64,000 bases of DNA from Streptomyces spinosus (lineage in GTDB: Bacteria; Actinomycetota; Actinomycetes; Streptomycetales; Streptomycetaceae), in NCBI RefSeq assembly GCF_020400655.1, contig NZ_JAINRC010000024.1, forward strand, positions 1-64,000, given 5' to 3'. The notes beneath the pieces are model-generated. The model saw only the letters and a program-made list of their open reading frames with translations, had not been told where the DNA came from and ran no database searches. Both the position numbers and the translations under genes were made by a program. This document shows, in pieces, positions 36,709 to 56,063 of this stretch (within the stretch, counting starts at the first letter, position 1; each line of letters opens with the position of its first letter).

Positions 36709-38001
36709 ATGACCGGAACGGACGCGCGGCGGGACGTCGCCGGCCGGAATGTGCGCGAGGCGGCGGCCGGTGTCCCGGCGGTGTGGTCACGGGACTTCGC
36801 GCTCTTCTTCGTGGCCCGGGCCGTCGCCCGGCTCGGCGACACCATGCTGCCCGTCGCCCTCGCCGCCGGCCTGCTGGAACACGGGTACGGCGCGGGCGCG
36901 GTCGGCCTCGCCATGGCCTCCACGGCCGCCGCGTTCGCGGGACTCGTCGTCTTCGGCGGGGTCGTCGCCGACCGGTTCAGCACCCGCAGGCTGATGATCG
37001 GCGCCGACCTCGTGCGGCTCGGCACCCAGTCCGCCGCCGCGGGCCTGTTCTTCACCGGACACGTGGTGCTGTGGGAGATCTGCGCCATCGGCGTCGTCAA
37101 CGGCGTGGCCGGCGCGGTCTTCCAGCCCGGCGTGGCCAGCACCGTGCCCCGCCTCGCCACCGACATCCAGGGCGCGAACGGCGCCATCCGCATCGCCGAG
37201 TCCGCCGCCCAGCTCGCCGGCCCCGCCGTCGCCGGCGTGCTGGTGGGCCTCGCCTCGCCCGGCGGGGTCTTCGCCGCGCACGCCGCCACCTACGCGCTCA
37301 GCGCCCTGTGCCTGCTGCTGCTCCGGCTGCGCCCGCTCCCCGTCACCGCCCGCGCGGCCACCGGCTCCGCCCTGCGCGCCTTCCGCGCCGATCTCGTCGA
37401 CGGCTGGCGGGAGTTCCGCTCCCGCGCCTGGCTGTGGAGCGTGATCGCCGTCTGGTGCCTCTACATGATCGCCGTGTGGGGCCCGACCGTGCCGCTGGTG
37501 GCCACCGAGGTCGTCAGGCACCACGGCCCCGGCGCGTACGGCCTGGTCAACTCGGCCCTCGGCGCGGGCACGGTGGTCGGTGGCCTGCTCGCGCTGCGGC
37601 TGCGCCCCCGCCGCATGCTCCGCGCGGGCGCGATCTCCCTGTTCGCCTTCTTCGGCTTCCCCGCGACCGTCGGGGCGGGCCTCGGCGTACCGGCCATGGC
37701 GGCCGGGGCCGCGGTCGCCGGTGCCGGGATGTCGTTCTGGGGCGTGATGTGGGCGACCACCGTACAGACCCAGGTCCCGGCCGACGTCCTCAACCGCATC
37801 CACGCCTACGACGTGGCGGGCTCCCTCGCCATGATGCCGGTCGGCCAGGCCCTCGCGGGCCCGGCGGCCGCATCCCTCGGCGCCGGCCACGTCCTGCTGA
37901 CCGCGGCGGTGGTGAGCCTGGCGGTGGCGGCCATCCTGCTGGCCGTCCCACCGGTACGCGACCTGGCCCGGGCCGACGCGACGGCGTCCGCCGTGCCGTG
38001 A
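36709..38001 (+). CDS. MFS transporter
   Basis: 430-aa major-facilitator protein with about 12 predicted helices; the first begins at VWSRDFALFFVARAVARLGD and the A-loop is GGVVADRFSTRRLMI. Resembles the enterobactin exporter/NreB-like MFS_3 group that exports drugs, siderophores or metals. ATG 36709 has a strong GGAGGGGAG upstream. The 157 bp before it contain short CACGGACG repeats but no recognised operator. Substrate unknown. Confidence 0.9.
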   Translation: MTGTDARRDVAGRNVREAAAGVPAVWSRDFALFFVARAVARLGDTMLPVALAAGLLEHGYGAGAVGLAMASTAAAFAGLVVFGGVVADRFSTRRLMIGADLVRLGTQSAAAGLFFTGHVVLWEICAIGVVNGVAGAVFQPGVASTVPRLATDIQGANGAIRIAESAAQLAGPAVAGVLVGLASPGGVFAAHAATYALSALCLLLLRLRPLPVTARAATGSALRAFRADLVDGWREFRSRAWLWSVIAVWCLYMIAVWGPTVPLVATEVVRHHGPGAYGLVNSALGAGTVVGGLLALRLRPRRMLRAGAISLFAFFGFPATVGAGLGVPAMAAGAAVAGAGMSFWGVMWATTVQTQVPADVLNRIHAYDVAGSLAMMPVGQALAGPAAASLGAGHVLLTAAVVSLAVAAILLAVPPVRDLARADATASAVP

Positions 38002-38113
38002 GGACGTGGACCGGACGCGGCGGAGCCGGGACGAGGGGAGCCCGGGGGCTCTGTCCCCGGTGCACCGAAGTGACCTGCCGGCAGGCCCCGTGCGCGGCCC
38101 CGCGCGTCGGCGT

Positions 38114-39037
38114 TCACCCGCGTCCCGCCGTCACCCGCGCCGCGTCCAGGAAGTGCCCGATCCGTTCCCGCAGGCCCGCCCCGTCCAGCCCGTGCGCGGC
38201 CACGTGTTCCTCGATCGTGCCGTAGCGGCGCAGCTCACGGCGGGCGACGCCGAGGCCGAGCACCCGGTGCGGGACGTCGGCCAGTGCCTCGCTCACCGCG
38301 GCCGTCGACGTCCCGGCCAGGTACGGCTCGACCAGCACGACGTCCGTGCCCGCCGCCTCCGTCGCCCTGCGCAGCCCGGCCGCGTCGAACGGTCGTACCG
38401 TCGTGGCGTACAGCACGGTCACGTCCAGGCCCTCCGTCGCGGTGAGGACCGCGTCCAGCATCGGGCCCACCGCGACGACGACGCCCGAACGGCCCTCGCG
38501 GACGGTGACGAAGTGCCGGCCGTCGACGACCCGCCCCCGCTGGTTGGACTGCACCGACAGCCGCACGTAGACCCGGTCGTCGCCCGCCGCGACCGCGTGG
38601 TGCAGCAGCGTCTCGGCCTCGTCCGGGTGCCCGGGCACGTGGACCGTCCAGCCGTCGAGTGTGTCGAGGAGGGCCACGTCGCCCGGGGCCATGTGGGTGA
38701 AGCCGCCGGCCGGCCAGTCGAAGGAGGCGGCGGCACTCACCAGCACCGCGCCCGTGTTCTGGTGTCCCAGGTCCAGCTTGAGCTGCTCGAACGGCCGCTC
38801 CACGAGGAAGCTGGCGAAGGTGTGCACGATCGGCCGCAGCCCGGTGAGCGCCAGCCCCGCAGCCGCGCCGACCAGCAGCTGTTCCCGGATGCCGACGTTG
38901 ATCACCCGGTCGGGGTGCCGGCGTTCGGCCTCGCGGAACCCGTCCCGGCCGATCTCGGCCAGGACGACCGCGACCCGGGGATCCTCGTCCAGCAGCCGGG
39001 AGACGACGGGGGCGAAACGGTCACGCATGGTGTCCAT
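38114..39037 (-). CDS. transketolase C-terminal subunit
   Basis: 307-aa subunit containing the pyrimidine-binding domain (NVGIREQLLVGAAAGLALTG with the catalytic Glu; VHTFASFLVERPFEQLKLD) and the C-terminal domain (VLYATTVRPFDAAGL). Forms an active enzyme only with the N-terminal subunit encoded 21 bp upstream on the same strand. Such split transketolases occur in actinomycete sugar and secondary-metabolite pathways. ATG 39037 has GGAAAGG upstream; ATG 39028 is possible. Confidence 0.92.
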   Translation of the reverse strand: MDTMRDRFAPVVSRLLDEDPRVAVVLAEIGRDGFREAERRHPDRVINVGIREQLLVGAAAGLALTGLRPIVHTFASFLVERPFEQLKLDLGHQNTGAVLVSAAASFDWPAGGFTHMAPGDVALLDTLDGWTVHVPGHPDEAETLLHHAVAAGDDRVYVRLSVQSNQRGRVVDGRHFVTVREGRSGVVVAVGPMLDAVLTATEGLDVTVLYATTVRPFDAAGLRRATEAAGTDVVLVEPYLAGTSTAAVSEALADVPHRVLGLGVARRELRRYGTIEEHVAAHGLDGAGLRERIGHFLDAARVTAGRG

Positions 39038-39058
39038 CGAGAAGACCTTTCCGGTGGG

Positions 39059-39766
39059 TCAGACGTTCTTCGGCTCGACGCGGGCCACGACGACGTGCGG
39101 CCGGCCGGGATGCGGGGCGGTGAACGCGGCGTGCAGCGCCTCGTGGTCGCGCCCGTCGACGGTCACCGCGGACCAGCCCGCCGCCTCGAAGCGGGCGGCG
39201 ATCCCGCCGGGCAGCGCATGGCTCGCGGAGGAGTTGTCGACCACGACGGTGTGCAGCCGGTCGAGCCCGGCGGGCCCCGCGAAGGCGATCGCCTCGTGGT
39301 TGCTGCCCTCGTCCAGCTCGGCGTCCCCGATCAGCACCCAGACCGCCGGATCGGGCCGGCCCTGCGCCCGCAGACCCAGGGCGGTGCCCACGGCGATGGG
39401 CAGCCCGTGGCCGAGCGAGCCACTGCCGATCTCGGCCCCCGGCACCAGGACGCGGTCCGGGTGGTGCCCGAGCGGGGAGTCGTAGGACCCGAAGCCGGGC
39501 AGCCACTCGACGGGCACGAACCCCTTGGCCGCCAGCACGGCGTAGTACGCCATGGGCCCGTGCCCCTTGCTCAGCAGGAAGCGGTCCCGGGCCGGGTCGT
39601 CCTGCCGCTGCGGAGCGACCCGGAGCACCCGGTCGTAGAGGACCCACAGCACGTCGAGTGTGGACGTGGCGGCCGGCCCGTGCTTCTCGTCACCGGTCAT
39701 CAGCCCCATCAGCCGGGGCAGGTCGTCGTAGCCGTACGTACGGCTCTGGTCCGTTGCGGTCGTCAT
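39059..39766 (-). CDS. transketolase N-terminal subunit
   Basis: 235-aa subunit binding the diphosphate end of thiamine diphosphate: KGHGPMAYYAVLAAKG, GSLGHGLPIAVGTALGLR, and the TPP motif GDAELDEGSNHEA to VVVDNSSASH. Together with the downstream subunit it would transfer C2 units between sugar phosphates, feeding the pentose-phosphate pathway or NADPH supply. ATG at 39766 is seven bases from the -10 element, so the message is probably leaderless. The promoter carries a SoxR-type box, suggesting induction by redox-cycling compounds. Confidence 0.92.
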   Translation of the reverse strand: MTTATDQSRTYGYDDLPRLMGLMTGDEKHGPAATSTLDVLWVLYDRVLRVAPQRQDDPARDRFLLSKGHGPMAYYAVLAAKGFVPVEWLPGFGSYDSPLGHHPDRVLVPGAEIGSGSLGHGLPIAVGTALGLRAQGRPDPAVWVLIGDAELDEGSNHEAIAFAGPAGLDRLHTVVVDNSSASHALPGGIAARFEAAGWSAVTVDGRDHEALHAAFTAPHPGRPHVVVARVEPKNV

Positions 39767-39773
39767 GCCGATG

Positions 39774-39804
39774 ATCGTGCAACCTCAAGCGGACTTGAGG
39801 TCAA
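39774..39804 (-). promoter_or_regulatory. SoxR/MerR-type promoter of the split transketolase
   Basis: On the minus strand a TTGACC -35 (39799-39804) and a CACGAT -10 (39774-39779) are separated by 19 bp, the over-long spacing typical of MerR-family activation. The spacer holds the dyad ACCTCAAG-N4-CTTGAGGT (39782-39801), matching the known SoxR box core CCTCAAG-N4-CTTGAGG in the same register relative to the -35 as in E. coli soxS. The predicted transcript starts at about the ATG. Confidence 0.8.
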
Positions 39805-39891
39805 ACCGGGAAAGGGGCGCGCGACCACCGAGCCGAGTGCGGTATTGTTTCCCTGCGCGTTCGGCCGGGGAAACCCCAGGTCAAACGGCAC

Positions 39892-39965
<74 letters not shown>

Positions 39966-39982
39966 CTTGTGAGAGTCACCGG

Positions 39983-55974: not shown

Positions 55975-56048
<74 letters not shown>

Positions 56049-56063
56049 CGTGTGGAAGTCGGC

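Follow-up and report, generated by a model that had tools for sequence, protein, structure and literature searches.

Does the promoter-like sequence at this locus answer to SoxR, and if so, what kind of enzyme would it switch on? The window, by which we mean the whole stretch of 64,000 nucleotides analysed here, carries on its minus strand two consecutive genes for the halves of a transketolase-like enzyme, with two hexamers and a dyad ahead of them. An initial annotation, made from the letters alone, had read this arrangement as a SoxR-type promoter with a leaderless start. In our best reading, the site would be the promoter of a two-gene operon that SoxR activates and whose message is leaderless; the operon would encode a ThDP ketol transferase using a non-standard acceptor. 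We set out below the evidence for the regulation and then that for the enzyme.

The candidate promoter and the proposed two-gene operon

Direct reading of the minus strand bore out the promoter exactly to the base: TTGACC and CACGAT are separated by a 19-base spacer with the dyad inside, and the ATG lies where it had been placed (Table 1). The split of the transketolase was likewise confirmed, as both halves were matched by family models and the domains are divided over the two consecutive genes, tktC beginning 21 bases after tktN. A consensus scan of positions 37900-39960, which is blind to promoters with a 19-bp spacer, detected no other promoter or terminator.

Table 1 Features of the candidate promoter and operon in the window.
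Feature	Position	Strand	Basis
Predicted SoxR box, perfect dyad ACCTCAAG-N4-CTTGAGGT	39782..39801	.	Direct reading; kept at orthologous loci
-35 element TTGACC, sharing bases with the box's left arm	39799..39804	-	Direct reading; TTGA in 176/176 tabulated sites
-10 element CACGAT, 19-bp spacer to the -35 element	39774..39779	-	Direct reading; tabulated sites
Start codon ATG of tktN	39764..39766	-	Seven bases after the -10 element; in-frame ATG conserved
tktN, N-terminal (ThDP diphosphate-binding) half, 235 aa	39059..39766	-	Transketolase_N, E 1.2e-26
GGAAAGG, possible ribosome-binding site of tktC	39046..39052	-	By eye
tktC, pyrimidine-binding and C-terminal half, 307 aa	38114..39037	-	Transket_pyr, E 1.9e-26; Transketolase_C, E 6.7e-07

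Within the window, the dyad was the sole match to its own pattern at up to three mismatches, while shuffles gave a mean of 0.09. The whole genome (9.17 Mb) holds CCTCAAG-N4-CTTGAGG without mismatch at this single place, so the search for further sites that the initial annotation had proposed returned no other exact one. Inexact 18-mers (up to two mismatches) occurred at 13 places against 18 for the reversed control, and they carry little meaning in this genome because they are no commoner than that control. In contrast, the TTGA-joined 23-mer, again at up to two mismatches, was found at three places against none for its reversed control. The other two places lie ahead of an ABC exporter and of a quinone-oxidoreductase-like gene, and the exporter's box leaves seven bases between -10 and ATG, as at tktN. 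SoxR targets of Streptomyces coelicolor described in PMC4146615 include both of these classes, a likeness drawn here by class.

Among the best 80 of 532 relatives, the recurrent neighbours on the other strand are a LysR-like gene (69 loci), an HTH-cupin gene (49) and a convergent MFS gene (33). On the operon's strand, an overlapping frame without Pfam match recurs in 68, and a NUDIX-like gene (31) and a glutamine-synthetase-like gene (15) lie upstream. The neighbouring genes of these 80 relatives offered no hint of a substrate. Two identical tRNA-Pro(GGG) genes were also seen on the plus strand of the window, at 39892-39966 and 55975-56049, 16 kb apart. They are alike in 75 of 75 bases and the identity ends there; they are possibly a duplicated integration site.

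Conservation of the box and distribution of SoxR

The box was found ahead of all 80 named orthologues among the best 80 of 532 relatives, with no mismatch in 5, one in 24, two in 40, three in 9 and four in 2. Streptomyces loci L171-L259 gave the same picture at up to five mismatches (89/89; 17, 30, 27 and 8 loci with zero to three mismatches, and 7 with five). Removing 22 duplicate 60-mers from a pool of 199 loci left 177 distinct sequences from upstream of Streptomyces orthologues, 176 of which have the box; the upstream DNA inspected came from 109 of the 202 enzyme-bearing genomes. By comparison, 1514 random stretches of 331 bp contained none at up to four mismatches and three at five. The -10 element has A as its second base and T as its last in every one of the 176 tabulated sites, which are distinct Streptomyces upstream sequences. 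Dyad and spacing are thus kept at the other Streptomyces orthologues, the comparison on which the initial annotation had staked its claim. Additionally, 14 of the 176 dyads show a mirrored change from C-G to T-A on both sides together, and such paired change in both arms is what recognition by a dimer would lead one to expect.

The exception among the 177 is L316, a 66% identical copy without the box in genome G315. That genome has two copies 62-66% identical to the N-half, of which L316 is the one examined; it is perhaps a paralogous line under different control. The box was absent from all seven relatives compared beyond Streptomyces, whose identity over the N-half is 49 to 63%. G588, a genome from another family of the same class, holds two copies (64 and 67% identity to the N-half), and no SoxR box was found at the copy that was read (L144).

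The position of the start codon is also conserved. In 173 of 177 loci, 14 or 15 bases separate box and ATG, and in 176 of 177 an ATG lies 12-15 bases past the box in frame with the enzyme; for this second count, L345 was added and L316, having no box, was left out. The stretch from this ATG to the EKHG motif varies from 15 to 54 residues (166 loci with the motif found). Since the ATG stays in frame despite this variable stretch, the one after the box is very likely the true start of the N-half. A canonical transcript start would then leave the N-half without a leader. The SoxR-type promoter, as first proposed, is well supported by comparison, and a leaderless start would follow from the placement of the ATG. 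Separately, the copy on pSCL4 of S. clavuligerus (L345), whose box is TTGACTTCAAGTGAACTTGAAGT, has its RefSeq N-half start 141 bases downstream of the post-box ATG (5884 and 6025); the RefSeq start is probably annotated too far in.

A SoxR is encoded in the same genome, on another contig. It scores above the curated cut-off (240.7 bits versus 116.9) and is the only protein to do so, its cluster motif is CIGCGCLSMETC, and its best solved relative is E. coli SoxR (2zhg, 1.1e-50), with an identical helix, vSALHFYESKGLI. The absence of soxR, which would have told against the initial annotation, is thereby excluded. Across the genus, soxR was detected at E 1e-40 or better in 381 of 392 genomes, the enzyme in 202 and the 23-mer in 362, and the reversed control of the 23-mer gave eight matches altogether. 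The 23-mer was missing from 8 of the 11 genomes without a soxR match versus 22 of the 381 with one (Fisher 6e-8, ignoring shared descent). Similarly, the enzyme was present in 1 of those 11 versus 201 of the 381 (p 0.005, again ignoring shared descent). Genomes with boxes and no soxR match include G079, which is 78% complete and also has the enzyme, and G277, with one forward and four reverse boxes. In seven genomes (G096, G165, G372, G150, G055, G384 and G058), a box-like site, TTGACTTCAACCTT[TG]GTTTAAGT, was observed on the strand opposite the soxR match and no more than about 50 bases away from it; soxR may regulate itself there, or the site may serve a divergent target.

Collectively, genome comparison supports SoxR control of the operon well, and we consider such control, with the start at ATG 39766, highly probable. 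In the mechanism that we propose, SoxR, a [2Fe-2S] activator, would sit on the dyad between -35 and -10, as at a MerR-type promoter. Oxidation of its cluster by a redox-cycling compound would distort the DNA so that RNA polymerase could start. Transcription would begin at or beside the ATG, giving a leaderless N-half, and the same transcript would carry the C-half. Both halves would then make up one ThDP enzyme that may move a two-carbon ketol unit to an acceptor other than the usual ones.

soxR paralogues beside the operon and the letters of the box

In ten genomes, a soxR paralogue adjoins the operon and diverges from it, with the box in the gap between them. All ten paralogues score above the SoxR cut-off and have the helix SALRYYEE.GLI and intact cluster cysteines. 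The box lies 14-15 bases from the enzyme's ATG in these ten loci, and 5-18 bases from the paralogue's first in-frame ATG in eight of them (123 and 176 in the other two). Nine of the paralogues come from loci with about 1.5 kb of upstream DNA (less in L307, near a contig end), and eight of these nine from genomes searched for having two soxR copies. The tenth, in G043, appeared first in the 300 bases of L249 and was then confirmed by coordinates. About 300 bases upstream were covered in the 60 loci L200-L259, too few to reveal a soxR lying farther away. A tblastn search over the best 80 of 532 relatives found no soxR adjoining the operon. A soxR beside the operon was likewise rejected for the present genome, whose sole SoxR above the cut-off sits on another contig.

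The helix of SoxR and the letters of the box were then compared in 60 genomes, a consecutive block of the enzyme-survey ranking that was not picked by box or soxR. All 42 genomes with only His-type SoxR (ALHFYE) carried C at the sixth position of the box. Of the 16 in which an Arg-type SoxR (ALRFYE or ALRYYE) was present, 12 had T there, 3 had C and 1 had G. The association of helix type with this position gave a Fisher value of 2e-10, which ignores shared descent. Two genomes of the block were unclear and stood outside the test: G349 and G366, whose second soxR copy is untyped and whose boxes are both C. Arg-type genomes with C boxes are G012, G214 and G043 inside the block and G111, G391 and G055 outside it. 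Other genomes outside the block comprise G351, G378, G031, G154 and G180 (Arg, T), G000, G243 and G020 (His, C), and G010, with a T box, a His-type main copy and an untyped second copy; G206 and G009 were typed His, their boxes lying outside the helix/box table.

Arg-type helices occur in at least two backgrounds, namely as the main SoxR, or as a paralogue at the operon beside a His-type main copy (G036, G048 and G337). In these three genomes, the mirrored CTTCAAG/CTTGAAG pair was found only at the enzyme's box, and the same position at 13 other listed places was C eight times, T twice and A three times. We met no report of the linked paralogues or of the helix-to-box shift in the literature searched, most subscription journals lying outside it.

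These data bear on who reads the dyad. MerR-type sites have this architecture in common, and the genome holds 13 further matches to the SoxR model (E 6e-4 or better) under the cut-off, so another MerR-family activator might act here instead of SoxR. However, the operon-linked paralogues of ten genomes are SoxR proteins by the curated cut-off, boxes are absent from most genomes without a soxR match, and the letters of the box track the SoxR helix; we regard another activator as very unlikely. Of the 71 named loci with full flanks (among the best 80 of 532 relatives), 68 have a tRNA-Pro gene no more than 2 kb upstream, which would suit conservation owed to this neighbour, or a dyad arisen by chance. 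Such an origin is barely credible given the nearly fixed distance from box to ATG, and chance is rejected by both the window shuffles and the random-stretch control. SoxR is thus the preferred reader of the box.

The enzyme and its relation to known systems

Both halves of the enzyme are present in 79 of the 80 named loci among the best 80 of 532 relatives, and in the remaining one (L079) the available sequence stops 12 bases past the N-half match. Predicted models of the two halves had mean pLDDT values of 89.3 and 90.8, and fold searches confirmed a ThDP-enzyme fold and nothing beyond it. Compared with the two full-length transketolases encoded elsewhere in the genome, the pair keeps the His residues of KHG, KGHG, HHPD and FTH, the Asp of GDA, the Asn of DN and the Glu of GIRE. 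Such residues (GDG/GDA Asp, Asn, GIRE Glu and donor-site His) serve ThDP binding and catalysis in transketolase. The pair differs in having SAAASFDWPAGGFTH where the full-length enzymes have THDSIGLGEDGPTH, and its N-half ends ahead of their ASHGS stretch. The His and Asp of THDSIGLGEDG in the full-length enzymes, which we take to be acceptor-side residues of transketolase, were absent from all 26 clade members compared, non-genus relatives included. More distant pairs have both in 12 of 18 cases and lack them in 6, so this lack is not peculiar to the clade. In E. coli transketolase, H66, H100, G114 and H473 are donor contacts (PMC7661550), and by motif they correspond to positions kept in the pair. 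Ketol chemistry is therefore likely for the pair, as the donor side is kept, and the loss of the acceptor-side residues makes a standard acceptor improbable; on balance we lean toward an acceptor that is not one of the customary sugar phosphates.

The initial annotation had gone further, proposing that carbon flow through a dedicated transketolase, and perhaps NADPH supply, is switched on under redox stress. Transketolase itself produces no NADPH. SoxR might nevertheless switch on an ordinary transketolase whose pentose phosphate pathway carbon would help NADPH supply. The family matches of both halves and the kept donor-contact His residues agree with this, as does the split enzyme of Carboxydothermus hydrogenoformans, which is active once its chains are combined (PMC7661550). 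The proposal had the family name as its one basis, and it is countered by the two full-length transketolases and by the 26 clade members without the acceptor-site pair. Moreover, all matches to NCBIfam transketolase equivalogs are far under the cut-off (best 132 bits versus 488). We therefore judge an ordinary transketolase unlikely and keep to the ketol transferase with a non-standard acceptor.

As for that acceptor, the SoxR setting prompts our guess that it is redox-active or electrophilic. A tentative and rather doubtful extension is that the SoxR-run ThDP enzyme adds a ketol unit to, or removes one from, such a compound, for instance an antibiotic resembling a quinone or a phenazine, or an aldehyde derived from such an antibiotic, and that the group with paralogues has a private redox switch. 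If so, carboligation would serve as detoxification or tailoring of redox drugs, and one Streptomyces group, with a captive soxR paralogue and with helix and box changed together, would have a privately wired switch. With this enzyme, another chemical class would enter the SoxR regulon of antibiotic producers, which is small and otherwise consists of a transporter and redox enzymes. The survey also points to species in which the fate of SoxR-sensed compounds can be studied. The operon-linked paralogues, with altered helix and altered box, offer a natural experiment on how MerR-type DNA specificity changes. The substrate and the paralogue-box pairs are the two points worth experiment.

In kind, the operon would be an ordinary further SoxR target, firmly supported as such by comparison. 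In the E. coli soxS promoter, too, the hexamers lie 19 bp apart and enclose the dyad; that promoter drives a second regulator, whereas here an enzyme operon with an apparent leaderless start follows. The recognition helix, as noted, is the same as that of E. coli SoxR (2zhg). S. coelicolor SoxR is described as answering redox-active compounds and not superoxide (PMC5288332), and its regulon, likened here by description, also has the SoxR box in target promoters (PMC4146615). In that paper (Naseer, Shapiro and Chander, 2014), a footnote to Table 4 credits SAV_1623 of S. avermitilis, a putative transketolase, with a conserved SoxR site; no S. avermitilis locus occurs among the best 80 of 532 relatives compared here. 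The link from SoxR to a transketolase is thus already in print for one species and is not new. The text on SAV_1623 in that paper gives no experiment on the gene and does not mention the split, the leaderless geometry, the genus-wide spread or the linked soxR paralogues.

The split itself also has a precedent. The C. hydrogenoformans transketolase (6yaj and 6yak; PMC7661550) divides its domains over two chains in the same way. According to PMC7661550, mesophilic bacteria seem to have full-length transketolases only. A second split transketolase-like pair in our genome (G000:C66:158311-159503) does not fit that statement; a further transketolase-like gene was seen at G000:C11:234547-235866. The C. 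hydrogenoformans chains are the best solved sequence match for both halves and the best fold match for the N-half, whereas the C-half is closest in fold to DXS enzymes, 6yaj ranking 25th. The C. hydrogenoformans enzyme keeps a THAG...GEDG stretch that our clade lacks, and its N chain has 309 residues, compared with 235 here.
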